Of a DNA stretch of 54,148 bases, positions 41,827 through 54,115 are shown in pieces. Source of the stretch: Dehalococcoidia bacterium (GTDB lineage: Bacteria; Chloroflexota; Dehalococcoidia; Lucifugimonadales; UBA3495). The stretch spans positions 1-54,148 of the forward strand of contig JAJDTP010000003.1 of assembly GCA_022827095.1 (NCBI GenBank). The letters are read 5' to 3'. Both the position numbers and the translations under genes were made by a program. The notes below the pieces were generated by a model. That model was not told the origin of the DNA. It saw only the letters and a program-made list of their open reading frames with translations, and ran no database searches. Positions within the stretch are counted from its first letter, which is position 1; every line of letters starts with the position of its first letter.

Positions 41827-44109
41827 TTAGGGCGTGGGAGCGGGTCCCAGCGAAACGTATCCCAGGTTGTCTTCGTTGCGCTCAGCCAGCGGGAGAATTT
41901 GAACAACCACGTTGCCCGGCCCGACCACTTCGCCGTCGGAGTCGAACGTGTAGTTTGCCCCGATGGCTCCGCTGAAGGTCAACCCGTACAGACAATCCCT
42001 GAAGCCGTCAGCGTCCTGGTCGTCGTTGGTCTGCTTCAGGCACTCTGCGGCAAGATACACATCGTCGTATGCGGAAGCCTGGAACCAGGGTTGGGTCGCG
42101 GGGCTGCCATAATGAGCATCAAAGTCCTTGAGGAACTGCTCGCCCCGCTCCGTGAGGCCCAACGGGATGATGGCCTTCATGCCGGTGGCGGCCTCTCCAG
42201 CGATGCTCAACGCCTCAGGCCCGGTGTTCACGGCCTCGGTGTAGATGGGGCCTTCGTAACCCAGCTCCCGTGCCTGTTTGATGATAGTGCCGCCCGAGAA
42301 TTCGCCTTGCGATGCCAGGTGAATGGCGTCGGGTTCCGACGCAATCAGTTTGGTGAGTTGCGTGCGAAAGTCAGTCACGTCCGAAGTATAGCTCTCGGCG
42401 GCGACGACGTGGCCACCCAGTTCCTCAAAGCGGGCGACAGTGGTGCGGCGCGCGCCTTCAGCGTAGTCCGTGGCTTCGGTGATGGTTGCCAGATGGTGGT
42501 GGCCGTCGGCATGGAGAGCGTTTCCGGTGTCGACTCCCAGCTGGTTATCGTCAATGGCGGTACGGAATATGTAATCGCCGGCCGGCTTGATGTCAGGGCT
42601 AGTGGCGGATGCGGACAGCATGATGACGCCATCAGCCTCGGCCAGAGGGGCCGCTCCCAGCATCGCGCCAGAGCAGGTAGTGCCGAGAATGATCTTGACA
42701 CCGTCAACGTCGGTCAGCTTGTTGTACGCCGTGATGGCGTCCTGCGCCGCGCACTTGGAGTCTTCGGGGATAATCTCCAGCATTCGCCCGTTGATGCCAC
42801 CAGCCGCGTTGATTTCTTCCACGGCGAGGAGCTTGGCGTTCAGGATCGGGTTACCGTAGGACTCGCCCACGCCGGTCAGGGCATCCATCGCGCCAATGCG
42901 GAATGGATCCTGCGACATGACAGGAGCGGCCGCAGCGGCATCTGCGCCCGGAGCGGAGCCAAGGATGCGATAGCCGTTGTTGTCGGCAGTGCGCTCAGAT
43001 TCCGGCAGTACTTCGACCACCGCGTTGGCCAGGCCGACAACCTCGCCGTCGGAGTCGAAGCTGTAGTTTTCGCCGATGGCGCCGCTCCAGGTAATCCCGT
43101 ACATGCAGTCGCGGAACCCGTCGGCGTCCTGGTCATCGCCGGTCATTTTCAGGCACTCGGCGGTGATGTAAACGTCGTCGTAGCCGGATGCCAAGTACCA
43201 GGGCAATGTCACATAGTCGTAGCGAGCCCTGAAGTTGGTCAGGACCTCCTGGCTCTTGGCGTTGGCCGGATCCAGTTCGGCAATGACGGCCTTCAAGCCG
43301 GTCGCCGATTCGCCGGCAACTTCGAGGGCAGTAGCGCCCACCGGAACGATCTCCGAGTACAGGGGGCCCTCGTAACCCAGTTCGCGGATCTGCTTCACCA
43401 CCGTGCCGCCGGAGAATTCCGATTGGGCGGCAATGTGCACCGCATCGGGATTGGAGTTCAAAATCTTGGTCAACTGGCTGCGGAAGTCGGTCACGTCGGA
43501 AGCATAGCGCTCCTCGGCGACGATCTCGCCTCCCAAAGAAACGAACTGCTCCGCGGTGGTGCGGCGCACGCCCTCGGCGTAGTCGGTGGTTTCCGTGATG
43601 GTCGCCAGGCGTTGCGCGCCGTCGGCGCGGATCACGTTGCCGGTGTCGATGCCCAGCTGCAGGTCGTTCATCGACGTGCGGAAGATGTAGTCGCCGGCGT
43701 GGGCAATGTCAGGGTTGGTTGCCAATCCGGAGAACAGGATCACGCCGTCCGCTTCGGCGAGGGGCGCCGCGCCCAGCATGGCGCCGCTGCACGACGTGCC
43801 GAGGATGATCTTCACGCCATCCACGTCGGTGAGCTTGTTGTACGCGGTGATCGCGTCCTGGGCGCTGCACTTCGAGTCCTGCACGATGAGCTCGATCATG
43901 CGCCCGTCGATGCCGCCGGCAGCGTTGATCTCGTCGACCGCCAGCTGCTTGGCCTGACTGGAGACCGTTCCGTAAGTCTCGCCGGGGCCTGTGAGCGATT
44001 CCATCACTCCTATCTTGAACGACTCGTCGCTCGCATCGTCCCCGCAGGCGACGGCCAGGAGTCCCAAGACTGCCAGAACGCACACCAACGCAATCTGTCG
44101 AATGGACAT
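41827..44109 (-). CDS. Tandem double LIV-type substrate-binding lipoprotein
   Basis: 760 aa from ATG 44109 with AAAGGAGG upstream. The signal ends in a lipobox (LLAVAC22-GDD). Residues 31-385 and 403-760 are two complete type I periplasmic binding domains, each starting F(K/R)IGxM(E/D)xLTGxGExYG and each with INAAGGI(D/N)GR and EFSGGT, joined by an Ala-rich linker (386-400). A single domain of about 380 aa is normal. Each copy has matched Cys pairs (C81/C107 and C319/C335 in copy 1) and a DQDADGFRDC stretch. It heads the operon. The ligand may be an amino acid, urea-like compound or small amide. Confidence 0.93.
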   Translation of the reverse strand: MSIRQIALVCVLAVLGLLAVACGDDASDESFKIGVMESLTGPGETYGTVSSQAKQLAVDEINAAGGIDGRMIELIVQDSKCSAQDAITAYNKLTDVDGVKIILGTSCSGAMLGAAPLAEADGVILFSGLATNPDIAHAGDYIFRTSMNDLQLGIDTGNVIRADGAQRLATITETTDYAEGVRRTTAEQFVSLGGEIVAEERYASDVTDFRSQLTKILNSNPDAVHIAAQSEFSGGTVVKQIRELGYEGPLYSEIVPVGATALEVAGESATGLKAVIAELDPANAKSQEVLTNFRARYDYVTLPWYLASGYDDVYITAECLKMTGDDQDADGFRDCMYGITWSGAIGENYSFDSDGEVVGLANAVVEVLPESERTADNNGYRILGSAPGADAAAAAPVMSQDPFRIGAMDALTGVGESYGNPILNAKLLAVEEINAAGGINGRMLEIIPEDSKCAAQDAITAYNKLTDVDGVKIILGTTCSGAMLGAAPLAEADGVIMLSASATSPDIKPAGDYIFRTAIDDNQLGVDTGNALHADGHHHLATITEATDYAEGARRTTVARFEELGGHVVAAESYTSDVTDFRTQLTKLIASEPDAIHLASQGEFSGGTIIKQARELGYEGPIYTEAVNTGPEALSIAGEAATGMKAIIPLGLTERGEQFLKDFDAHYGSPATQPWFQASAYDDVYLAAECLKQTNDDQDADGFRDCLYGLTFSGAIGANYTFDSDGEVVGPGNVVVQILPLAERNEDNLGYVSLGPAPTP

Positions 44110-44148
44110 CACCCCTCCTTTCGGAGCCGGCCAATCTGCCGTGCGGGC

Positions 44149-44221
44149 AGTATCCCCCACGCGAATCTCAAGCCGCAAGGGTATTCGGGGAAGCCGTGAA
44201 CCTGTTGAGATTGAATCTCAA
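44149..44221 (-). promoter_or_regulatory. Promoter and candidate operator of the LIV operon
   Basis: On the minus strand -35 TTGCGG (44178-44173), 18-nt spacer, -10 GATACT (44154-44149). A perfect 17-nt palindrome TTGAGATTGAATCTCAA lies upstream at 44205-44221. A further half-site GAATCTCAA (44163-44171) falls in the promoter spacer. The arrangement suggests a dimeric regulator binding two sites about 50 bp apart. Promoter strength is only moderate. Confidence 0.45.
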
Positions 44222-44277
44222 TGCCATGCGGAACAGATGTTGTGACGAACGGTTGTCAGGCGAGAGATAGTGTGGGG

Positions 44278-44353
<76 letters not shown>

Positions 44354-44398
44354 ACGACGCGCACTCCGCCGCCAAACGGCTGCGGTGCGGCAGCCTCT

Positions 44399-44407
44399 AC
44401 TATAGCA
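44399..44407 (-). promoter_or_regulatory. Extended -10 of tRNA-Ala
   Basis: Minus-strand TGCTATAGT (44407-44399) predicts a start near 44392, 39 nt before the tRNA 5' end. No convincing -35 is seen, as is common with extended -10 promoters. Confidence 0.4.
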
Positions 44408-44465
44408 CAGGGTGGTGCCCGTCCCGGGGCACAGGGACGCTCCGGCCTTGCGACTGCCTGTCGTT

Positions 44466-44474
44466 TGCTACAAT
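44466..44474 (+). promoter_or_regulatory. Extended -10 of tRNA-Asn and peroxiredoxin
   Basis: TGCTACAAT at 44466-44474, with a possible -35 TTGCGA at 44448-44453 (15-nt spacing, short). Predicted start about 44481, 22 nt before the tRNA. It is the only promoter-like site close enough to serve the peroxiredoxin gene as well. Confidence 0.45.
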
Positions 44475-44502
44475 AGACCTCGCGCCGGAATGGCGCGCGC
44501 GT

Positions 44503-44578
44503 TCCCGCGTAGCTCAGTTGGTAGAGCGGTCGGCTGTTAACCGATTGGTCGTAGGTTCGAGTCCTACCGCGGGAGCCA
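44503..44578 (+). tRNA. tRNA-Asn (GTT)
   Basis: Acceptor TCCCGCG/CGCGGGA, anticodon loop CTGTTAA closed by TCGG/CCGA with anticodon GTT, T arm GTAGGTTCGAGTCCTAC, discriminator G and encoded CCA (44576-44578). The peroxiredoxin gene starts only 28 nt after the CCA. Confidence 0.95.
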
Positions 44579-44606
44579 GATCAAGCACGCAAAGGAGATG
44601 CACATC

Positions 44607-45266
44607 ATGGCGCTACGCATCAACGACACGGCCCCCGACTTCACCGCTGACACCAGCAGCGGCACCGTCAACTTCCACGACTGGATCGGCGACGGTTGGG
44701 CGGTCCTCTTCTCCCACCCCAAGGACTTCACTCCCGTCTGCGCAACCGAACTCGGCTACGTCGCCAGCCTGAACGATGAGTTCGGCAAGCGCAACTGCAA
44801 GGTCATCGGCCTCAGTGTCGACAAGGTCGAGGACCACCAGCGCTGGGCAGCCGACATCGAAGAGATCGGCGGCACCGCCCTCAACTTCCCCATCATCGCC
44901 GACGACCAGCTGAACATCGCCAAGCTGTACGACATGCTCCCCGCCGAGGAGGAGCCCGGAGAGGGCCGCACTGCGGCAACGAACCAGACCGTGCGCACCG
45001 TCTTCCTCGTCGGCCCGGACAAGAAGATCAAGATGAACCTCACCTACCCCATGAGCACGGGGCGCAATTTCGATGAGTTGCTGCGTGTCCTGGACTCCTG
45101 CCAGCTCACCGCCGGCCACAAGGTGGCGACCCCCGCGAACTGGAACAAGGGCGAGGACGTCATCATCCTGCCCGCGGTCGACAACGAGGCCGCCAAGGAG
45201 CTCTTCCCGGACGGTTGGGAGACAGTGAAGCCTTACCTCCGCAAGGTCAAGGACCCCAGCGCGTAA
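44607..45266 (+). CDS. 1-Cys peroxiredoxin (Prx6 group)
   Basis: 219 aa from ATG 44607, 9 nt after AAAGGAG. The ATG at 44598 touches that SD. SHPKDFTPVCATELGYV contains the peroxidatic Cys45 with the conserved Thr and Pro, and Arg in NQTVRTVFLVGPDKKIK completes the site. The length and C-terminal NWNKGEDVIILPAVDNEAAKELFPDGWETVKPYLR extension are those of Prx6-type enzymes. It reduces H2O2 and organic hydroperoxides in the cytoplasm. It is placed directly after tRNA-Asn without room for a separate promoter and ends at a bidirectional terminator. Confidence 0.95.
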   Translation: MALRINDTAPDFTADTSSGTVNFHDWIGDGWAVLFSHPKDFTPVCATELGYVASLNDEFGKRNCKVIGLSVDKVEDHQRWAADIEEIGGTALNFPIIADDQLNIAKLYDMLPAEEEPGEGRTAATNQTVRTVFLVGPDKKIKMNLTYPMSTGRNFDELLRVLDSCQLTAGHKVATPANWNKGEDVIILPAVDNEAAKELFPDGWETVKPYLRKVKDPSA

Positions 45267-45304
45267 GCGCAGTAGGCTGCGCACTGCCCGGAATGACAGA
45301 GTAA

Positions 45305-45333
45305 AAGCCCCCGCGCACATTGCGCGGGGGCTT
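45305..45333. terminator. Bidirectional rho-independent terminator
   Basis: AAGCCCCCGCGCA (45305-45317), CAT, TGCGCGGGGGCTT (45321-45333). The AAAA before it makes a T-tract for the minus-strand tRNA-Asp transcript, and TTCATTT follows on the plus side for the peroxiredoxin transcript. Confidence 0.88.
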
Positions 45334-45350
45334 CATTTCGCTGCCGCTGC

Positions 45351-45429
45351 TGGCGACCCGGACCGGATTTGAACCGGCGATCTCCGCCTTGACAGGGCGG
45401 TGTGTTAAACCAGGCTACACCACCGGGCC
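45351..45429 (-). tRNA. tRNA-Asp (GTC)
   Basis: Minus-strand cloverleaf with acceptor GGCCCGG/CCGGGTC (one G:U), anticodon arm CCGCC-CTGTCAA-GGCGG giving GTC, T arm GCCGGTTCAAATCCGGT, discriminator G and encoded CCA (45351-45353). It lies 40 nt downstream of the glutaredoxin gene on the same strand. Confidence 0.94.
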
Positions 45430-45469
45430 GCGGTAGCTTGCCCCGGCTACACCGGGGCGGTCAGAACGC

Positions 45470-45694
45470 TCAGCCGATCCCATGATACCCCACGATGACG
45501 AGTTCTCCCTCGACCATCACGGGGGTCACGCGCTCACCGCCGGTCAGCCGCTCCAACTCCCCTACGAACTCGGGGTGCTCCTCGAGATCGATCTGCCGGT
45601 ACTCCACTCCATCTTTTCTGAGGTCGTGCAGCAGGGCATCCGAGTAGGTACAGTCGGGGCGCGTATAGACGATGAGCTCAGCCTGGCTGACCAT
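45470..45694 (-). CDS. Glutaredoxin-like protein with CxxS motif
   Basis: 74 aa from ATG 45694. LIVYTRPDCTYSDALLHDLRKDGVEYRQIDLEEHPEFVGELERLTGGERVTPVMVEGELVIVGYHG is a complete short glutaredoxin. The active site is C15-T-Y-S18, so the resolving Cys is Ser. VTPVM supplies the cis-Pro loop. Monothiol action on glutathione-like thiols or Fe-S assembly is possible. An extended -10 TGGTATGAT (45712-45704) would start transcription only about 3 nt before the ATG. A small hairpin (45441-45457) and tRNA-Asp follow, and the two are probably co-transcribed. Confidence 0.8.
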   Translation of the reverse strand: MVSQAELIVYTRPDCTYSDALLHDLRKDGVEYRQIDLEEHPEFVGELERLTGGERVTPVMVEGELVIVGYHGIG

Positions 45695-45766
45695 TGCCTC
45701 CGAATCATACCAGCGCGTGGCCTGATAGGCTAGGGAGCCATTCACTCACCCGTGCGGAGCCGGAAC

Positions 45767-46744
45767 ATGCCCACGATGCGAGCCGCCATCCTCAGAGGAC
45801 TGCGGGACATCGTCTGCGACGAAGTGCCCATGCCGGAATCGGATGGACAGAAAGCGCTCGTGCGGATGCACATGGCCTCCATCTGCGGCACGGACCTGCA
45901 CTACGTCTACCACGGCTGGCCGCGCAACCAATATCCGATGGAGCCCGGTGAACCGGGGCATGAAGGGGTAGGCACTATCGTCGACCCGGGCGAGACCGGT
46001 TTGCGGGAGGGAGCGCTTGTCCTCACCGTTCCGAACATCTGGGAGGCGCGCAACTTCGCCGAATACCAGGCTGTCTCGCCCCATTTCATCATCGAACTGC
46101 CGGAGGGGCGCCCCCTTGCCGAATTGATGATGGCCCAGCAGTTGGGCACCGTCATCTTCGCGGCGCGCAAACTGCCTGAGATGACGGGCAAAACCGCCGT
46201 GGTCATCGGGCAGGGGAGCGCAGGCCTCTTCCACGACTTCTACCTGCGCCGCCTCGGCGCCGAGCGGATCATCACCATCGAACCGAACGACGACCGGCGT
46301 GCGGCAGGGGTCGCGCTCGGCGCGGACGACGCGCTCGACGTGACCGGCGATGCAGCGGTGGAAGCCGTGCTGCAATTAACGGACGGGCAGGGGGCCGAGG
46401 TGATCGTTGACGCGGTCGGCGGTCACGAGACGCTCGACCAGGCGGTGCGGATGGCGAAAGCGGAGGGCCACGTGCACGTGTTCGGCCTGCCGACGGGGTT
46501 CGACCCTGTGCCGTTCGACCTGGGCACTTACTTCCTCAAACGGCTCGACGTACGCACCATATTCGGCGCTCAGGACGAGCCGGGCCTCGTGTCGTTCCGG
46601 CAGGCCCTCCGGCTCATAGCCGAGGGGGAGATCGATATGTCTCCCTACGTAACGCACACCATGCCTCTGGAACGAGTGGGCGATGCCTTCGAACTGGCGC
46701 ACGAACCCAGCGGCGGCGCGCTCAAGGTTTCCCTTACGATGTAG
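45767..46744 (+). CDS. Zinc-type alcohol dehydrogenase (MDR superfamily)
   Basis: 325 aa from ATG 45767 with GGAG 7 nt upstream (ATG 45776 is an alternative). SICGTDLHYVYHG gives the catalytic zinc Cys, and GEPGHEGVGTIV the His/Glu pair. The four-Cys structural zinc lobe of classical ADHs is missing. The Rossmann loop is VIGQGSAGLFHDFYLRRLGAERIITIEPNDDR, where Glu after the strand suggests NAD(H). It probably oxidises a polyol, alcohol or threonine-like substrate. It stands divergent from the glutaredoxin gene. Confidence 0.9.
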   Translation: MPTMRAAILRGLRDIVCDEVPMPESDGQKALVRMHMASICGTDLHYVYHGWPRNQYPMEPGEPGHEGVGTIVDPGETGLREGALVLTVPNIWEARNFAEYQAVSPHFIIELPEGRPLAELMMAQQLGTVIFAARKLPEMTGKTAVVIGQGSAGLFHDFYLRRLGAERIITIEPNDDRRAAGVALGADDALDVTGDAAVEAVLQLTDGQGAEVIVDAVGGHETLDQAVRMAKAEGHVHVFGLPTGFDPVPFDLGTYFLKRLDVRTIFGAQDEPGLVSFRQALRLIAEGEIDMSPYVTHTMPLERVGDAFELAHEPSGGALKVSLTM

Positions 46745-46795
46745 CGGGGTTGCGCATTCCCTGCGAAGCAAGAATCGGGTATGATTGCTGAACGC

Positions 46796-46823
46796 TTGAC
46801 ACGCAGCGGCAAACCCTTATAGC
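46796..46823 (+). promoter_or_regulatory. Promoter of the three-gene secreted-protein cluster
   Basis: -35 TTGACA (46796-46801), 16-nt spacer, -10 TATAGC (46818-46823). The predicted leader is about 60 nt with AAGGAGG (46878-46884) before GTG 46891. Confidence 0.55.
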
Positions 46824-46890
46824 CTCTGCGCCGCACTCGCGGCACGCACGAGTTGTCTGGCCGTGAGCATCGGGTTGAAGGAGGAAAGCC

Positions 46891-47403
46891 GTGACTCGAA
46901 CGCATTCACTACTGTCGCCGCGGTTCGCATTGGTTACATTGGCCGCTGCCGCTCTGGTGGGGCTCGCCCTCGCGGCGGCGCTTTCCACGAATGAAGGCGC
47001 GCGCGCGGACGGTCACGCCACCGGAGGAGAGACGCTTGTCGTAACGCCGAACGAAGCAGACTTCGTTCCGGGGACGCGCAGCTCTCGCACTGCGGTGTGG
47101 ATCTACGGGTCCGGCTTCAACCCCGGTCAGAGCCTCCTCGTCCTGATCGCTGACCAGCGTGGCGTTGCCACGGACGTCGGTGCTCTCTCGGGCGTCGACG
47201 TGGTCGCCAACGACGACGGCGCCTTCGGGTTCGAGTGGACATTCGGCCGCTTTACCCGGACAGGCGTCGGCGGCGAGGGCATGCAGTCGGTCCGTGCAGT
47301 GGACGCAGGCTCGTTCGACGAGTTGGCGACCGCTCCGCTTGCCCTCTGCAACCTCAGCGGCCGTGCCGAGGATGCGGAAGTCCCGAGCCACTGCTCGGCG
47401 TAA
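46891..47403 (+). CDS. Secreted beta-sandwich protein, ADGH family member 1
   Basis: 170 aa from GTG 46891. A basic N-terminus, a hydrophobic span (FALVTLAAAALVGLALAAALS) and the signal-peptidase-like site ARA-DGH (cleavage after residue 39) predict export, giving a mature chain that starts Asp-Gly-His. VWIYGSGFNPGQSLLVLIA and NDDGAFGFEWTFGRFTRTG form an Ig/IPT-like beta-sandwich. The end carries two cysteines (LCNLSGRAEDAEVPSHCSA) that may form a disulfide. It is the first of three tandem paralogues (47441 and 48041). Function unknown. I do not recognise a named family. Confidence 0.75.
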   Translation: MTRTHSLLSPRFALVTLAAAALVGLALAAALSTNEGARADGHATGGETLVVTPNEADFVPGTRSSRTAVWIYGSGFNPGQSLLVLIADQRGVATDVGALSGVDVVANDDGAFGFEWTFGRFTRTGVGGEGMQSVRAVDAGSFDELATAPLALCNLSGRAEDAEVPSHCSA

Positions 47404-47440
47404 CCCTACCTTTTGAAGATTCGTTGAGCAGGAGGACTCA

Positions 47441-48016
47441 GTGACAGCTGCTACCACAGTAACGAAACGGTCAGCGACCATCTGGATCGCTGCCGGTCTC
47501 ATCGCCGGTCTTGCGCTCGCTATCGCGCTCTCTGCGTATCAGGGCGTGCGCGCGGACGGGCATGTGACGGGGACCGAAGCCATCGTGCTCGACAAGACCG
47601 AGGTCACTTTCGTACCGGGCACGAGCCGCTCAGGCGAGGAAGTCTGGATCCGCGGTTCCGGATTCACGCCGGGCAATGAGATCGAGCTCATGGTGGCGGA
47701 CTACCAGGGCGCGCTCTACATCATCAGCGCCTGTCGCTGGAACGACGAAGGTGAGTGCGACCCCGGTCGCTACCGCGACGGCGCGGGCAGCGTGTGGCCG
47801 CTCATCGTGAACGACGATGGTGCGTTCGCGACCAAGTGGCGCCTCGGACGCTTCACCCGCGCGAACGTTGGTGCAGAGCGTCTGGCGACTATGTGGGCCG
47901 TGGAAAAGGCCAGCGGCACTTTCCTGGCCAGCGCGCCGATCGCGCTCTGCAACCTGACACGGAATGACGATCCTGAAGCGGAACCCGTAGAAGTCCCCAA
48001 CTTCTGCTCGGCGTAA
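47441..48016 (+). CDS. Secreted beta-sandwich protein, ADGH family member 2
   Basis: 191 aa from GTG 47441 with AGGAGG upstream, 37 nt after member 1. Signal span TIWIAAGLIAGLALAIALSAY, then VRA-DGH with predicted cleavage after residue 38. VWIRGSGFTPGNEIELMVADY and NDDGAFATKWRLGRFTRAN match member 1. A 25-residue insertion rich in charged and Cys residues (ACRWNDEGECDPGRYRDG) lies between these blocks. The C-terminus LCNLTRNDDPEAEPVEVPNFCSA keeps the terminal Cys pair. Likely extracytoplasmic, with unknown ligand. Confidence 0.75.
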   Translation: MTAATTVTKRSATIWIAAGLIAGLALAIALSAYQGVRADGHVTGTEAIVLDKTEVTFVPGTSRSGEEVWIRGSGFTPGNEIELMVADYQGALYIISACRWNDEGECDPGRYRDGAGSVWPLIVNDDGAFATKWRLGRFTRANVGAERLATMWAVEKASGTFLASAPIALCNLTRNDDPEAEPVEVPNFCSA

Positions 48017-48040
48017 GCGTAAGGTCCACAGGAGGTAATC

Positions 48041-48781
48041 GTGACTAAGGTAATCGCAACTCACCCCCGGGCCGTGGTTCTCACGCTTATCGCCGCGGGG
48101 CTGCTGCTCGGCCTTGTGGCGGGCAATGCCGTCCTCTCCCCGAGGGCGTCCGCCGACGGACACGTCTCCGGCGTCGAGAGCGTCGTCACGGGAGACGTGG
48201 TCGTCAACCACCAGTTGGGGGCGCGCTCGTCCCGCGAGCAGGTCCGTATCTGGGGCGCGGGCTTCGCTGCCGGACAGGAGGTCATCCTCCTTATCAACGA
48301 CGGTCCCGGCACTCCTTCAGACATCACGAACTACGTGAGCAACAAGAGTGCCAACAACACCCTCGTTGCCAACGACCAGGGCGCATGGACAACAGTCTGG
48401 ACGCTCGGCCGCTTCACCCGCCAGCGCTCCGGCATCGGCCCCGGCGACGGCGACGTGGAGCGCGTGCGTACCCTCAGCGTCATCGACCCCGGTACGTTTG
48501 ACGTCATCACCAGCACACCGTTGGCCTTCTGCCGCAAGAGCGACCGCGTCGCCATCGCGGAGAACCTCGCCGAGTTGGAGTCCGACCTGGCGCTCGTCCA
48601 GGCTGACAGGGACGAAGGCCTCGGCGAGAAGCCCGTCAACGTCTCCGATGCGGCCTGGGCCCTCGCGACCGCGTTCTACCCCTCCTACGAGGCAACACTC
48701 GACGCCAAGATCGTCGAACTGACGGCGGACATAGAGGCTGAGAAGGCCAAGCAGGGCGTTCCTGACCACTGTCCCTCGTAG
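48041..48781 (+). CDS. Secreted beta-sandwich protein, ADGH family member 3
   Basis: 246 aa from GTG 48041 with AGGAGG (48029-48034), 24 nt after member 2. Signal span VVLTLIAAGLLLGLVAGNAVL, then ASA-DGH, an ideal AxA signal-peptidase site. VRIWGAGFAAGQEVILLIND and NDQGAWTTVWTLGRFTRQ correspond to the other members. The last 80 residues (after FCRKSDR) are unique: a predicted helical hairpin (IAENLAELESDLALVQADRD... LDAKIVELTADIEAEKAKQ) sits between the two conserved cysteines before VPDHCPS. It could mediate assembly or spacing at the cell surface. Confidence 0.75.
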   Translation: MTKVIATHPRAVVLTLIAAGLLLGLVAGNAVLSPRASADGHVSGVESVVTGDVVVNHQLGARSSREQVRIWGAGFAAGQEVILLINDGPGTPSDITNYVSNKSANNTLVANDQGAWTTVWTLGRFTRQRSGIGPGDGDVERVRTLSVIDPGTFDVITSTPLAFCRKSDRVAIAENLAELESDLALVQADRDEGLGEKPVNVSDAAWALATAFYPSYEATLDAKIVELTADIEAEKAKQGVPDHCPS

Positions 48782-48808
48782 GGCCAAGAGGCATAGGCGA
48801 AACCTGGA

Positions 48809-48833
48809 AGCCCTCCGGAGAACCCGGAGGGCT
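48809..48833 (+). terminator. Rho-independent terminator of the secreted cluster
   Basis: AGCCCTCCGG (48809-48818) pairs with CCGGAGGGCT (48824-48833), followed by TCTGCTTT. Confidence 0.8.
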
Positions 48834-48851
48834 TCTGCTTTGCACCGCCAT

Positions 48852-48860
48852 TGCTAGAAT
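48852..48860 (+). promoter_or_regulatory. Extended -10 of the glutaryl-CoA dehydrogenase gene
   Basis: TGCTAGAAT at 48852-48860, predicted start about 48867, 25 nt before ATG 48892. It lies just after the terminator of the previous cluster. Confidence 0.45.
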
Positions 48861-48891
48861 GGCCTTCCACCACCCGTACTGTGAGGCCCTG

Positions 48892-50058
48892 ATGCAACCC
48901 TACCGCGGCATAGACCTGCTGGATATCGAATCGCAGTTGACCGACGACGAGCGGCAGGTGCGCGACACTGTTCGCGACTTCGTCGAGGCGGAGGCGATGC
49001 CTGCCGTCGTTCCCCACTTCCGGGAGGGTACATTTCCACTGGAACTCGTCCCGCGCCTGGGGGAACTGGGCCTCTTCGGCGCCCACCTGGAGGGTTACGG
49101 CTGTGCCGGGCTCGGCCCCGTGGCCTACGGCCTCGTCATGCAGGAGCTGGAGCGCGCCGACTCCGGCTACCGCTCATTCGCGTCTGTCCAGTCCTCCCTG
49201 GCGATGACCGCCATCCATGAGTTCGGCACCGAGGAACATCGCGAGCGCTACCTGCCGGACATGGCTGCAGGCCGCGTCCTCGGCGCATTCGGGCTCACCG
49301 AAGCAGACCACGGCTCCGATCCGGCCGGGATGGAGACGCACGCTGTCGAAACCGCGGACGGCTTCACGCTCAACGGCGGCAAGATGTGGATCACGAATGC
49401 CGGCATCGCCGACGTCGTGGTGGTCTGGGCGAAGCTGGGCGACGCGATACGAGGCTTCCTGGTGGACACGACCCTGCCGGGCGTACGACGGGAGGACATC
49501 CACAACAAGCTCTCGATGCGGATGAGCGTAACCAGCGCATTTTTCCTGGAAGACGTGCGCGTGGGAGAAGATGCGTTGCTCCCCGGCACGCGTGGCCTCG
49601 GCTCGGCGCTGGCCTGCCTCAACGCGGCGCGATACAGCATCGTCTGGGGCGTCTGCGGGGCGGCTGCCGACTGCCTGCACACCGCCATCGAATACACAAA
49701 GGAGCGGGAGCAGTTCGGACGCCCGCTTGCGTCCTTCCAGCTCGTGCAGCAGAAGCTTGCGGACATGGCCACATCGCTCTCGAAGGCGCAGCTGCTCGCG
49801 TTGCAGTTGGGACGGCTGAAGGCCGCGGGAACGCTGCACTGGTCGCACGTCAGCATGGCGAAGTACAGCAACACCCTCGCGGCGCTGGAGATCGCGCGCA
49901 CCAGCCGCGACCTGCTCGGCGCGGCCGGCATCACCGACGATCTCTCCCCGATGCGCCACGCGATGAACCTGGAGACAGTGCACACCTACGAGGGCACGCA
50001 GCACATGCACCAGCTCATCCTGGGGCGTCACCTGACCGGCATCAACGCTATCTCCTGA
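48892..50058 (+). CDS. gcdH: Glutaryl-CoA dehydrogenase-like acyl-CoA dehydrogenase
   Basis: 388 aa from ATG 48892 with GAGG nearby. The in-frame ATG at 48859 overlaps the -10. LERADSGYRSFASVQSSLAMTAIHEFG, FGLTEADHGSDPAGMETHAV, GGKMWITNAGIADVVVVWAKL and LSMRMSVTSAFFLEDV follow the glutaryl-CoA dehydrogenase pattern closely. The catalytic Glu367 is in TYEGTQHMHQLILGRHLTG. The enzyme would oxidise and decarboxylate glutaryl-CoA to crotonyl-CoA (lysine, tryptophan or aromatic ring degradation) with FAD and an electron-transfer flavoprotein. No ETF genes are in the window. Confidence 0.9.
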   Translation: MQPYRGIDLLDIESQLTDDERQVRDTVRDFVEAEAMPAVVPHFREGTFPLELVPRLGELGLFGAHLEGYGCAGLGPVAYGLVMQELERADSGYRSFASVQSSLAMTAIHEFGTEEHRERYLPDMAAGRVLGAFGLTEADHGSDPAGMETHAVETADGFTLNGGKMWITNAGIADVVVVWAKLGDAIRGFLVDTTLPGVRREDIHNKLSMRMSVTSAFFLEDVRVGEDALLPGTRGLGSALACLNAARYSIVWGVCGAAADCLHTAIEYTKEREQFGRPLASFQLVQQKLADMATSLSKAQLLALQLGRLKAAGTLHWSHVSMAKYSNTLAALEIARTSRDLLGAAGITDDLSPMRHAMNLETVHTYEGTQHMHQLILGRHLTGINAIS

Positions 50059-50124
50059 CTGGCGGCAGGCAGGTTTGCCTCATGCGCTCCCCAGGCGGAT
50101 AATCGACCTGCAGGAGGATGGCTG

Positions 50125-51090
50125 ATGAAAGCGGTGCGGTTCCACGAATTCGGCGGGCCGGAAGTGCTCCGCCTTGAAGATGTCCCCGACCCCGAACCCG
50201 GCGACGGCGACGTGCTGGTCCGGCTCGCGGCCTCCGGCGTCAACCCTACGGATGCCTCGCGGCGCGCCGGACGCATGGGGCAGGACATCGGCTTTCCCGC
50301 CATGCTCGGCGTGGAGGGCGCGGGCGTCGTTGCGGGGACCGGCAGGGACGTGACGTCGGTGAGCGAGGGCGACCGGGTCATCGTACGTCAGCACTTGCAC
50401 ACGTATGCTGAACTGATCGCCGTTCCCGAGCACGCCGTGTTTCCAGCGCCGGGCAACCTCAGCCTCGTTGAAGCCTCGACGCTTGCCATCATCTACACGA
50501 CCGCGTGGGCGGCGCTGTGTGTCCGCGGCGGTGCGAAGGAGGGCGACACCGTCCTCGTGCAGGCCGCGGCGAGCGGCTGCGGCATCGCCGCCATCCAGCT
50601 GGCGAAGCAGCTGGGGATGACTGTGCTCGGCACTGCGAGCAGCGCCGAGAAGCTCGAATGGGCGGCCCAGTACGGGCTGGACCACGGCATCAACTACGTC
50701 GAGCAGGACTTCGTCGAGGAGTCCAAACGGCTCACGGACGGCCGCGGCGTGGACGTCATAGTCGACGGTATAGGCGGCGACATCCTGGCCAGGGGCCTCG
50801 GAGCACTGGCGCGCGGCGGGCGGGCAGCCGTGTTCGGGGCTGCGGGCGGCCGGGAGACGACGTTGCCGATCGCCAGCCTTTACCGCGGTCCGGTCTCGAT
50901 AACCGGCGCCGGCGCGGCGCTCACGCCGCGGGAGGACTTCGAGACGATCCTCGGCTGGTTCGCCGAGGGCAAGCTCAGGCCGACCATGGACCGCACGTGG
51001 CCGCTCGCCGAGGCCGTCGAGGCCCACCGCTACCAGGAGTCGCGCCAGATCAAGGGCAAGAGCGCACTCATCATCAGCGAAGACGACTGA
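50125..51090 (+). CDS. NADPH:quinone oxidoreductase (zeta-crystallin-like MDR)
   Basis: 321 aa, ATG with GGAGG upstream and a GATAAT -10-like string at 50098-50103. MKAVRFHEFGGPEVLRLEDVPDPEPG and ASGVNPTDASRRAG are the QOR-family N-terminus. VLVQAAASGCGIAAIQLAKQLGMTVLGTASS is the AxxGxxG-type cofactor loop. There are no zinc ligands. Reduction of quinones or alpha,beta-unsaturated carbonyls with NADPH is expected. It is followed by a dienelactone hydrolase gene 21 nt away, suggesting an operon. Confidence 0.9.
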   Translation: MKAVRFHEFGGPEVLRLEDVPDPEPGDGDVLVRLAASGVNPTDASRRAGRMGQDIGFPAMLGVEGAGVVAGTGRDVTSVSEGDRVIVRQHLHTYAELIAVPEHAVFPAPGNLSLVEASTLAIIYTTAWAALCVRGGAKEGDTVLVQAAASGCGIAAIQLAKQLGMTVLGTASSAEKLEWAAQYGLDHGINYVEQDFVEESKRLTDGRGVDVIVDGIGGDILARGLGALARGGRAAVFGAAGGRETTLPIASLYRGPVSITGAGAALTPREDFETILGWFAEGKLRPTMDRTWPLAEAVEAHRYQESRQIKGKSALIISEDD

Positions 51091-51111
51091 CCCGCACGAA
51101 GGAGGAAGGCG

Positions 51112-51873
51112 ATGGCATCCGAGTGGGTGAGCATAGACGTTGACGGCAAGCCGGTGGACGCGTACCTCGCTCTGCCGGACGCTCCCGGCCCGCACCCCGG
51201 CGTCGTCGTGGCGATGCACGTATTCGGGATCGACCGGTTCGTGCGGGAGAAGTGCGACGGGCTTGCCGAGGCGGGCTATGCCGCCATCGCGCCTTACCTC
51301 TTCCACCGCTCCGACGTGACGAACGAACAGCTGACGGGGTACGCCTTCGAGGACCCGACCCGCCGCGAGGTCGCCATGCCGCTGAAGGACAGCCTGCGCG
51401 ACGACGAACTGCTGCAGGATATGCTCGCAGGACTGGCGTGCCTGCGCGGACTGCCGGACGTGTCCGGGCCGTTCGGTGTCACCGGCTTCTGCATCGGCGG
51501 GCGCATCGCCTACATGCTCGCGGTACGGACGAAGGAGTTCGCCGCGTGCGCTGACTTCTACGGCGTTGACGTCGACCTGCCCTGGGGCGACGGCCCCGAC
51601 CCGCTGAGCCTGACGGCCGAGCTCGACTGCCCGCTCACCGGCTTCTTCGGCGACCTCGATGCGAACCCGGCGCCGCCGGACGTCGACAAGCTGGAAGCCG
51701 CGCTCCGCGCCGAGGGGAAGCCGTTCACCTTCCACCGCTATCCCAACGGACAGCACGCCTTCAACGATCCCTACAACCCCGTGCGGTACAACCCGGAGAT
51801 CTCCGCCGACTCGTGGCCGAAGCTCATCGGCTTCTTCGACAGCGCACTGAAAGCGAGGGAGCCGGTCGCATGA
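51112..51873 (+). CDS. Dienelactone hydrolase family protein
   Basis: 253 aa. ATG 51112 is preceded by AAGGAGGAAG. The nucleophile is Cys127 in VTGFCIGGRIAYML, as in true dienelactone hydrolases. The acid is the Asp in FFGDLDANP and the His lies in YPNGQHAFNDPYNP. PHPGVVVAMHVFGIDRFVREKCDGLAEAGYAAIAPYLF is the family N-terminal block. Such enzymes open the lactone ring in chlorocatechol or related ring-cleavage pathways, though many have other ester or lactone substrates. The stop overlaps the start of the next gene (ATGA). Confidence 0.92.
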   Translation: MASEWVSIDVDGKPVDAYLALPDAPGPHPGVVVAMHVFGIDRFVREKCDGLAEAGYAAIAPYLFHRSDVTNEQLTGYAFEDPTRREVAMPLKDSLRDDELLQDMLAGLACLRGLPDVSGPFGVTGFCIGGRIAYMLAVRTKEFAACADFYGVDVDLPWGDGPDPLSLTAELDCPLTGFFGDLDANPAPPDVDKLEAALRAEGKPFTFHRYPNGQHAFNDPYNPVRYNPEISADSWPKLIGFFDSALKAREPVA

Positions 51874-52409
51874 CCGCCGTCGTCGGCATATTCGAACACC
51901 GTACGGCTGCCGTTGCCGCTGAGCAGTTGCTGGAAGAGGCCGGCTTCGGCGACCGCACGGGCGTCACCTACGTGCTGCCGGACGACGGCCCTGCGCCTCC
52001 GAGCCTGAAGCGGCGGGGTGAGAGCATGCTGCGAGCGGCGATAAAGTGGGGCATCTGGGGCTCGCTCATCATCGAAGTGCCGTCGCTCATCGCGCTGCTG
52101 GTCTACCCGATGGACATCAACATAAAGATCCTGCTGGCGGCGACGGTCTGGAAGTTCGGCGCGGCGTTCGGCTCCTGGATAGGGGCGATGTCCGCCGGCG
52201 AGGAGGGACTCGACGACGAGCACGCCGCCGAATACGAGGCGCTCCTCGCTGCTGGCTATGCGCTCATCGCCGTGGACGTTCGAGCGCGTCATCGCCCCGG
52301 CATACGCGGAGCGCTGTTGGAGAGCGGCGCACTGAGCCTGCGGGACGTGCGCGGGTCGTTCGTGCTCAAGCAGCCGCCCGGTACGAAGCGGGCCGCCGTC
52401 TCCTCGTAG
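51870..52409 (+). CDS. Hypothetical protein with a central membrane hairpin
   Basis: 179 aa from ATG 51870, sharing ATGA with the dienelactone hydrolase stop, so the two are translationally coupled. The N-terminal part (VVGIFEHRTAAVAAEQLLEEAGFGDRTGVTYVLPDD) has the look of YflT/general-stress-type alpha-beta domains. The centre is hydrophobic (WGIWGSLIIEVPSLIALLVYP and ILLAATVWKFGAAFGSWIGAMSAG), giving one or two spans. The C-terminal part returns to a soluble beta-alpha motif. Function unknown, with family similarity weak. Confidence 0.6.
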   Translation: MTAVVGIFEHRTAAVAAEQLLEEAGFGDRTGVTYVLPDDGPAPPSLKRRGESMLRAAIKWGIWGSLIIEVPSLIALLVYPMDINIKILLAATVWKFGAAFGSWIGAMSAGEEGLDDEHAAEYEALLAAGYALIAVDVRARHRPGIRGALLESGALSLRDVRGSFVLKQPPGTKRAAVSS

Positions 52410-52413
52410 CCGG

Positions 52414-52866
52414 TCAGGATGCAGGCCGATCGAGCCGTTTCGCCATCGGCACGTGGTCTATGCCTGCCTCCACGAATCCCGGCCCCGTAACCGCGTACCC
52501 GTGACGCTCGTAGAGCGCCTGCACGTACGTCTGCGAGTGCAGGCCCACCTCGGCGATGCCGAGCCTGCGAGCCTCGGATTCCAGCGCCCCGAGCAGCAGT
52601 CCAGCGATGCCGCGACTCCGCCACGCGGGCAGCACCGCGACGCGCCCTATCCGCGCTTCGCCGTCCCGAGTCAGCCGCGCCGTGCCGACGACCGCCGTCC
52701 CGTCTCTCGCGACGACGTGCACGGCGTTATCGTCCGCATCGTCGCGTTCGAGTTCGGGCGGTACGCCCTGCTCGAGGATGAAGACCTCGCGCCGCACGGC
52801 GAACGCGCCATGCATATCGTCGTCGCTCGACGCCACCCGAACCTCGATGCTCTGCTGTCCGGCCAT
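52414..52866 (-). CDS. GNAT N-acetyltransferase (ElaA-like)
   Basis: 150 aa from ATG 52866. FAVRREVFILEQGVPPELERDDADDNAVHVVARD is the ElaA/GNAT opening (R-x-E-V-F-x-x-E-Q). RIGRVAVLPAWRSRGIAGLLLGALESEARRLG is the acetyl-CoA loop (RxxG-type RSRGIA). LHSQTYVQALYERHGYAVTGPGFVEAGIDHVPM completes the fold. The acceptor is unknown. A perfect minus-strand TATAAT lies 6 nt before the ATG and there is no SD, so it is probably translated from a leaderless mRNA. It converges on the gene at 51870 with a 4-nt gap. Confidence 0.9.
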   Translation of the reverse strand: MAGQQSIEVRVASSDDDMHGAFAVRREVFILEQGVPPELERDDADDNAVHVVARDGTAVVGTARLTRDGEARIGRVAVLPAWRSRGIAGLLLGALESEARRLGIAEVGLHSQTYVQALYERHGYAVTGPGFVEAGIDHVPMAKRLDRPAS

Positions 52867-52870
52867 GCCG

Positions 52871-52896
52871 GGATTATAGGAGCGCGGCTATAATCC
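52871..52896. promoter_or_regulatory. Symmetric divergent -10 pair
   Basis: GGATTATAG (52871-52879) and CTATAATCC (52888-52896) are exact inverted repeats. The left arm is a TATAAT for the minus-strand GNAT gene (start on the ATG). The right arm is a TATAAT for the plus-strand MetE-like gene (leader about 22 nt). The two RNA polymerase sites are too close to be used at once. Confidence 0.5.
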
Positions 52897-52922
52897 GGTT
52901 CACCTTTCCCCGGAGCACTCCC

Positions 52923-54068
52923 ATGAAACTCTCTACAGACCGCATCCTCACGACCCACGTCGGCAGCCTGCCGCGTCCGGACGACGTCGCCGCACTGCTC
53001 CTCAAGAAGGAGCGCGAGGAAGAGTACGACGCCGACGAGCTGGACGCGCTCGTGCGGCAGGGCGTCGCCGACATCGTCGCGCGGCAGCACGCCGCAGGCG
53101 TCGATATCGTGAGCGACGGCGAGATGAGCAAGGTCGCCTACTCCACCTACGCCAAGGACAGGCTCACCGGTTTCGAGGGAGACAGCGCGCGCCGCCCCAA
53201 CCTGGACGTGGCGCCGTACCCCGACTTCCGCGCCAAGATGGCTCGCATGACCGGCGACCAGCCGATGCGCCGCCCGCAGTGCGTCGGGGCGGTGGAGGTG
53301 AGGGACCGGGAGCCGCTGCGGAAGGACCTCGATAACTTCAAGGCGGCGATCGAAGGCGTGGGCGTCACCGATGCGTTCATGACCTCGTCCTCGCCGGGAG
53401 TGGCCTCCGTGTTCATGCCGAACGCGTACTACCCGACGCACGAGGCGTACATAGACGCGTTGGGGGCGGCGATGCAGGAGGAGTACGAGGCCATCGTCGG
53501 GGCGGGGTTCGTGCTGCAGGTGGACTGTCCCGACCTGGCTATGGCGTTCCACACCGGCTTCCAGGGACTGACCGAGGAGGAGTTCCTCCACCGCGCCGAG
53601 CACCATATCGACGTGCTGAACGGGGCGCTGGAGAACGTGCCTGCGGAATCGGCGCGGCTGCACGTCTGCTGGGGCAACTACGAGGGGCCCCACGACTACG
53701 ATATCGCCGTGTCTAAGATCATGCCCATCCTCCTTCGGGCGAAGCCGACCGCCATCCTCTTCGAGGCGTCGAACCCGCGTCACGCCCACGAGTGGAAGGA
53801 GTGGCGCGACGCCCGCATACCGGACGACAAGGTGCTCGTCCCCGGCGTGCTCGACTCCACGAGCAACTACGTGGAGCACCCGGAGCTGGTGGCGCAGCGC
53901 ATCGAGACGTTCGCCGCCATCGTGGGGCGCGAGCGGGTGCTCGCGGGCTCGGACTGCGGCTTCGGCACATTCGCAGGCTACGGGAAGATGGACCCGGACA
54001 TCATCTTCCGCAAGCTGGAGTCGCTGGCTGAAGGCGCCGCCATCGCCTCAGAGCGGCTTTGGGGTTAG
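52923..54068 (+). CDS. Cobalamin-independent methionine synthase C-domain/epoxyalkane-CoM-transferase-like enzyme
   Basis: 381 aa. GGAG lies 6 nt before the ATG. ILTTHVGSLPRPDDV is the opening of the MetE C-terminal domain family. VDIVSDGEMSKVAY, FVLQVDCPDLAM, RLHVCWGNYEGPHDYD (zinc ligands His/Cys) and LAGSDCGFGTFAG (third Cys) match the zinc thiol-transferase core. It lacks the MetE N-terminal half. Relatives include 2-hydroxypropyl-CoM lyase (epoxyalkane:CoM transferase) and other methyl- or alkyl-thiol transferases. The substrate cannot be chosen without structural comparison. Confidence 0.88.
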   Translation: MKLSTDRILTTHVGSLPRPDDVAALLLKKEREEEYDADELDALVRQGVADIVARQHAAGVDIVSDGEMSKVAYSTYAKDRLTGFEGDSARRPNLDVAPYPDFRAKMARMTGDQPMRRPQCVGAVEVRDREPLRKDLDNFKAAIEGVGVTDAFMTSSSPGVASVFMPNAYYPTHEAYIDALGAAMQEEYEAIVGAGFVLQVDCPDLAMAFHTGFQGLTEEEFLHRAEHHIDVLNGALENVPAESARLHVCWGNYEGPHDYDIAVSKIMPILLRAKPTAILFEASNPRHAHEWKEWRDARIPDDKVLVPGVLDSTSNYVEHPELVAQRIETFAAIVGRERVLAGSDCGFGTFAGYGKMDPDIIFRKLESLAEGAAIASERLWG

Positions 54069-54115
54069 GGGATGCGCCCATCACATGCGGCTTTTCCCAC
54101 CCACCCGCCCGTAGC

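Follow-up and report, generated by a model that had tools for sequence, protein, structure and literature searches.

The window, i.e., the whole stretch of 54,148 nucleotides analysed here, carries three open reading frames arranged in tandem on the forward strand, each with a GTG start and separated by gaps of 37 and 24 bases. These genes, their predicted control signals and the predicted N-termini of the mature products are located as follows.

46796..46823, forward strand: predicted promoter upstream of gene 1 (TTGACA, 16-nt spacer, TATAGC), conserved in the ortholog alignment
46878..46884, forward strand: strong Shine-Dalgarno sequence AAGGAGG before gene 1, recognised from sequence and conserved
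46891..47403, forward strand: paralogue A, 170 residues; signal peptide 1-39, mature DGH, Ig domain, Cys153/Cys168
47008..47016, forward strand: Asp-Gly-His, predicted mature N-terminus of A
47441..48016, forward strand: paralogue B, 191 residues; signal peptide 1-38, DGH, Ig domain with an additional Cys-containing loop, terminal Cys pair
47555..47563, forward strand: Asp-Gly-His, predicted mature N-terminus of B
48041..48781, forward strand: paralogue C, 246 residues; signal peptide 1-38, DGH, Ig domain, helical hairpin between two terminal cysteines
48155..48163, forward strand: Asp-Gly-His, predicted mature N-terminus of C
48807..48835, forward strand: probable terminator, a 12-bp G+C-rich hairpin GAAGCCCTCCGG-AGAAC-CCGGAGGGCTTC followed by a T-rich tail

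Each precursor runs from a short basic segment through a hydrophobic core to a variable spacer which ends in ARA, VRA or ASA, respectively, and is followed by Asp-Gly-His. An earlier note on this DNA had described the three products as tandem secreted paralogues, and the pairwise identities of 42%, 32% and 37% (BLASTP E values 2e-45, 7e-19 and 1e-25) show that they are true paralogues. It had placed the DGH motif at residues 39-42; the three preceding tripeptides were as described, while the exact positions of the motif are 40-42 in A and 39-41 in B and C. Of the shared GSGFxPGQ...GRFTR domain that it had proposed, GRFTR is present in all three proteins, but the Ig signature is the looser G[SA]GFx[PA]G (GSGFNPGQ, GSGFTPGN and GAGFAAGQ). 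The terminal Cys pair was found in all three, and the helical hairpin claimed between the cysteines of C is predicted by AlphaFold2 at mature residues 128-154 and 165-199. The earlier description is right in all important points. In the G113 genome, paralogue A (L182:10696-11337, reverse strand) has a partial internal duplication which repeats ATNEGARADSHVTGG and provides two copies of the motif; it is either real or an assembly artefact.

The promoter sequence has an exact, unique match in five of nine genomes searched. Of the five g58 genomes searched, four share an identical 29-base promoter stretch, which occurs once per genome, and G106 and G018 retain the hexamers around diverged spacers (TTGACA-TATAGT in G106). 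The spacer has diverged also in another genus, g24, where the hexamers are recognisable (TTGACA-GATAGT), and TTGACA lies at the equivalent place in the g74 and g76 orthologues. A consensus scanner, which demands T at position 6 of the -10 element, passed over 46796-46823. AGGAGG precedes the GTG of genes 2 and 3 as well. Most orthologues retain the hairpin after gene 3, and both sides of its stem carry changes; the scanner, which needs a denser T run, passed over 48807-48835 as well. From these sequence signals we read the trio as a three-gene operon that is predicted to be strongly expressed. A structured 5' leader was also considered; it was rejected, as the leader of the operon has no Rfam match and the promoter accounts for most of the conserved block.

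The predicted cleavage site was compared in 31 members, taken from the window and from twelve genomes of another family of the order. Position -1 is Ala in all 31, and position -3 is only Ala or Val. Asp stands at +1 in 30 members and is replaced by Gly in the remaining one, whereas +2 varies among Gly, Ser and Ala. In 29 members His occupies +3, a position that rests on the predicted cleavage at the conserved AxA site. Both exceptions are paralogue C of genus g24, which reads AFA-DGDHDH, with one His added. The first two positions vary solely among residues compatible with an amino-terminal Cu(II)- and Ni(II)-binding (ATCUN) site, i.e., DGH, DSH and GAH. On a tree of 30 members, positions -1, +1 and +3 have undergone 11, 5 and 8 codon steps with 0, 0 and 1 amino-acid steps, respectively, compared to 17 codon steps and 13 amino-acid steps at the neighbouring +4. 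In a second alignment of 27 members, which places the His of g24 C against H42, D40 and H42 show 0 replacements in 11 codon steps versus 121 in 257 at surrounding linker sites (Fisher P = 0.0013, an indicative value, the comparison having been picked after the motif was seen and parsimony codon steps not being independent events). Two downstream residues in that alignment, G45 and E47, are as fixed as D-x-H and probably belong to the Ig domain, while the residues from the hydrophobic core to AxA vary freely among members. Judged from these substitution patterns, AxA-D-x-H is under selection, and the proposal that signal peptidase I would leave Asp-Gly-His at the N-terminus is well supported by the conservation at -1, -3 and +3 and by the exclusively synonymous changes of the +1 Asp on the tree. 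Mature residues 1-8 have no secondary structure in the AlphaFold2 model.

The g74 orthologue, which occupies the same locus, has about 140 additional residues between the motif and the Ig domain, and its mature start is still DSH after VRA. Because the insertion leaves VRA-DSH at the mature start, it is suggestive of a motif that tracks the cleavage site and not the Ig domain. The inserted domain resembles cupredoxins: members of this group (copper nitrite reductase, plastocyanin and pseudoazurin) supply its three best PDB profile matches, each of them weak (E values 0.015-0.35), and it has no Pfam match. Its ligand loop reads DDSTDPGEHG or YDSTDPDGHG, without Cys or Met, and so differs from the His-Cys-His-Met ligand set of type 1 copper sites. 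The gene directly upstream in g74 encodes a membrane protein bearing a second copy of this cupredoxin-like domain; the products of L184:9320-10240 and L185:11729-12658 are membrane proteins of this kind, with a non-blue domain (lacking Cys/Met ligands) and no Pfam match, and adjoin the fused orthologue. The occurrence of the domain both in the orthologue and in the upstream membrane protein is suggestive, and makes a copper theme at this locus plausible.

In the AlphaFold2 models, mature A is predicted to fold as an Ig-like sandwich (mean pLDDT 81, pTM 0.75); mature C, modelled with less confidence (pTM 0.52), combines a similar sandwich with the hairpin. The top Foldseek matches are neocarzinostatin and macromomycin (E values 2e-4 to 1.4e-3; Z about 8.5), with TM-scores of 0.37-0.53, and other Ig-like folds (complement MG domains) reach an equal Z. 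Among 18 members tested, one reaches an E value of 0.025 with PF00960, the neocarzinostatin apoprotein family, for which six genomes yielded no match above cut-off, and one reaches 0.006 with PF01833 (IPT/TIG), which has no match to the window proteins at E values up to 1. Membership in either family was rejected, for want of a sequence match above the curated cut-off for PF00960 and of a family-model match in the window proteins for PF01833. The view that no named family has this combination of features was borne out, as no Pfam or NCBIfam family matches the trio; furthermore, sequence searches gave no convincing relative of solved structure, and we found no description of the D-x-H Ig family in the literature. 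Distant exported relatives in the same genomes have the Ig domain and the Cys pair without D-x-H. A wider group of exported Dehalococcoidia proteins (L175-L179 and L188) has the same Ig domain and a C-terminal Cys pair but no D-x-H start, and no Pfam family lies above cut-off in the members tested.

The genome of the window, which was scanned by patterns and in sampled stretches, has 35 matches to [AV]xAD[G/S/R]H, and among the 30 that were read only the three of the trio follow a signal peptide; the search for further exported proteins with an ADGH start, suggested in the earlier note, returned none beyond the trio among these 30. All 31 matches in the complete genome G106 were accounted for, and again only its three follow a signal peptide. 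A chance or generic motif was rejected on this basis, the other ADGH sites in both genomes having no preceding signal peptide. A lineage-wide preference for His at +3 was rejected as well, since none of 29 non-family signal-peptide ORFs, collected with a simple home-made predictor from 628 kb of two genomes, has His at this position.

The trio is present in five other public Chloroflexota MAGs. Among 147 genomes evenly sampled from the order, full-length matches beyond the genome of the window are confined to the family f19, and the trio is found in none of six other genomes of the window's own genus. Within f19 it is carried by 12 of 16 genomes, and by 10 of 10 among those more than 90% complete. 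Out of 350 genomes drawn from the phylum, only the genome of the window and one f19 genome gave matches. The same alcohol dehydrogenase and acyl-CoA dehydrogenase genes flank the trio in the window, in G113 (g58) and in G135 (g76), and in g74 the acyl-CoA dehydrogenase gene follows the orthologue.

The most familiar ATCUN sites are those of vertebrate plasma proteins and of antimicrobial peptides. They require a free amine and a His residue at position 3, and bind Cu(II) or Ni(II) tightly in a 4N square-planar geometry. Asp-X-His sites occur in serum albumin (DAH/DTH), hepcidin (DTH) and histatin-5 (DSH); where measured, their Cu(II) affinities lie around 1e12 to 5e14 per molar (PMC7701195). 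As these known sites share the Asp-X-His pattern, binding of Cu(II) or Ni(II) at the predicted DGH start would be chemically sound. In the proposed mechanism, the operon makes three Ig-fold proteins which would be exported by the Sec system and then cut by signal peptidase I behind AxA. This cut would leave an Ig domain, closed by a C-terminal disulfide, with an exposed and unstructured Asp-Gly/Ser-His tail. An ATCUN site would be formed there by the His imidazole together with the free amine and two amide nitrogens, and outside the membrane this site could take up Cu(II) (or Ni(II)). Provided that signal peptidase I does cut at the conserved AxA, chemistry alone would predict tight Cu(II) binding by every mature protein. 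Outside the cytoplasm the proteins might then buffer or carry Cu(II) or provide a redox centre, with the Ig domain, plus the helical hairpin in C, serving as the part which binds a partner or a surface. The gene trio, its homology, the operon signals, the selection on AxA-D-x-H and the predicted fold are what the analysis shows; the cleavage itself, the disulfide, metal binding and the physiological role are predicted properties.

Like albumin, hepcidin and histatin-5, the trio would have a secreted and processed Asp-X-His N-terminus with a small or polar residue at position 2, but those are vertebrate proteins of unrelated folds, whereas here the putative metal site belongs to a bacterial Ig-fold family with three members per operon. 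In PcoB-type outer-membrane copper proteins, copper efflux depends on a flexible, His-rich tail at the N-terminus that carries ATCUN-like motifs (PMC12509749). The trio would likewise have a flexible, extracytoplasmic N-terminal tail with such a motif; PcoB-type proteins, however, are beta-barrels with many internal His/Met motifs, and the trio has a single N-terminal X-X-His. The small secreted Ig-like sandwich with disulfides that is predicted for the trio is reminiscent of the neocarzinostatin apoprotein family, which supplies the best fold matches at the TM-scores given above, although the cysteine pattern of A and C differs and PF00960 has no helical hairpin. The GSGFxPG turn and the Ig-like fold are likewise reminiscent of IPT/TIG domains, from which the lack of a TIG match sets the window proteins apart.

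The best reading, in our opinion, is an operon of exported Ig-fold proteins exposing Asp-Gly/Ser-His as a putative extracytoplasmic Cu(II) ATCUN site. Our confidence in it is moderate because Cu(II) binding as the job of these proteins, be it as buffer, carrier or redox centre, is what we infer. Several observations count against copper, namely the two g24 C paralogues without His at +3, the distant Ig relatives without the motif, the departure of the cupredoxin-like domain from the normal Cys-His-Met set, and the absence of an adjacent copper-handling gene in the window, where the trio has a zinc alcohol dehydrogenase and an acyl-CoA dehydrogenase as neighbours. In addition, G45 and E47 are part of the conserved stretch, so that the motif might be one portion of a longer structural element. 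An alternative reading is that the trio consists of exported Ig-like surface or matrix proteins with a role in structure, in adhesion or in contacts to a sponge host; Asp-X-His would then be retained because a protein contact, folding or export requires it, and metal binding would be incidental. Ig-like proteins are common in sponge symbionts, which several of the source MAGs appear to be from their bin names; the Ig core is invariant, the T/S-G-x-E residues after the motif are as conserved as D-x-H, and copper genes are absent nearby. This alternative is possible, if somewhat doubtful, as the g74 motif stays at the mature N-terminus though a whole domain separates it from the Ig fold, so that it is not simply strand A of that fold, and variation at +1 and +2 with a constant His fits metal chelation.

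The two remaining alternatives appear less likely. A binder of small ligands resembling neocarzinostatin apoprotein, with an incidental N-terminus, would account for the top Foldseek matches and for the one member that touches PF00960, yet the TM-scores are low, complement MG domains score an equal Z and the family cut-off was not passed in six genomes; we consider it improbable. Less likely still is that the N-terminal hydrophobic segment is an uncleaved anchor, which would leave the His internal and create no ATCUN site. The distance of about 8 residues from the core to AxA is rather long in A and B; against this, an invariant -1 Ala and a -3 position restricted to Ala or Val despite many synonymous changes are expected of a signal peptidase I site, and the residues between core and AxA vary freely.

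If the Cu(II) ATCUN reading is true, the trio would represent a bacterial exported family whose site is created by signal-peptidase cleavage, and copper handling via processed N-termini would occur in bacteria, with selection holding Asp, a small residue and His. The lineage is uncultured, and its extracellular biology is almost unknown. More tentatively, the trio may represent a bacterial family not described before, whose Ig proteins would be strongly expressed, secreted and able to chelate Cu(II). Signal peptidase would make their albumin-type Asp-X-His N-terminus, and the proteins would be produced as a set of three, with fusion to a cupredoxin-like domain in one lineage.

With regard to the contig, positions 1-44028 of the window are collinear with genomes of the same genus at about 80-90% identity, while the 9.5-kb tail that includes the trio (44604-54069) is 91% identical to, and collinear with, G096 of f19. 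The junction (44028-44604) falls around the genes for tRNA-Ala and tRNA-Asn (44278-44353 and 44503-44578), and the contig is either chimeric or the carrier of a recently transferred segment. The gene family is unaffected by this question because it is seen in many independent assemblies. A 783-residue ORF on the reverse strand (41827-44178) resembles a tandem fusion of two ABC-transporter substrate-binding domains, each some 370 residues long.
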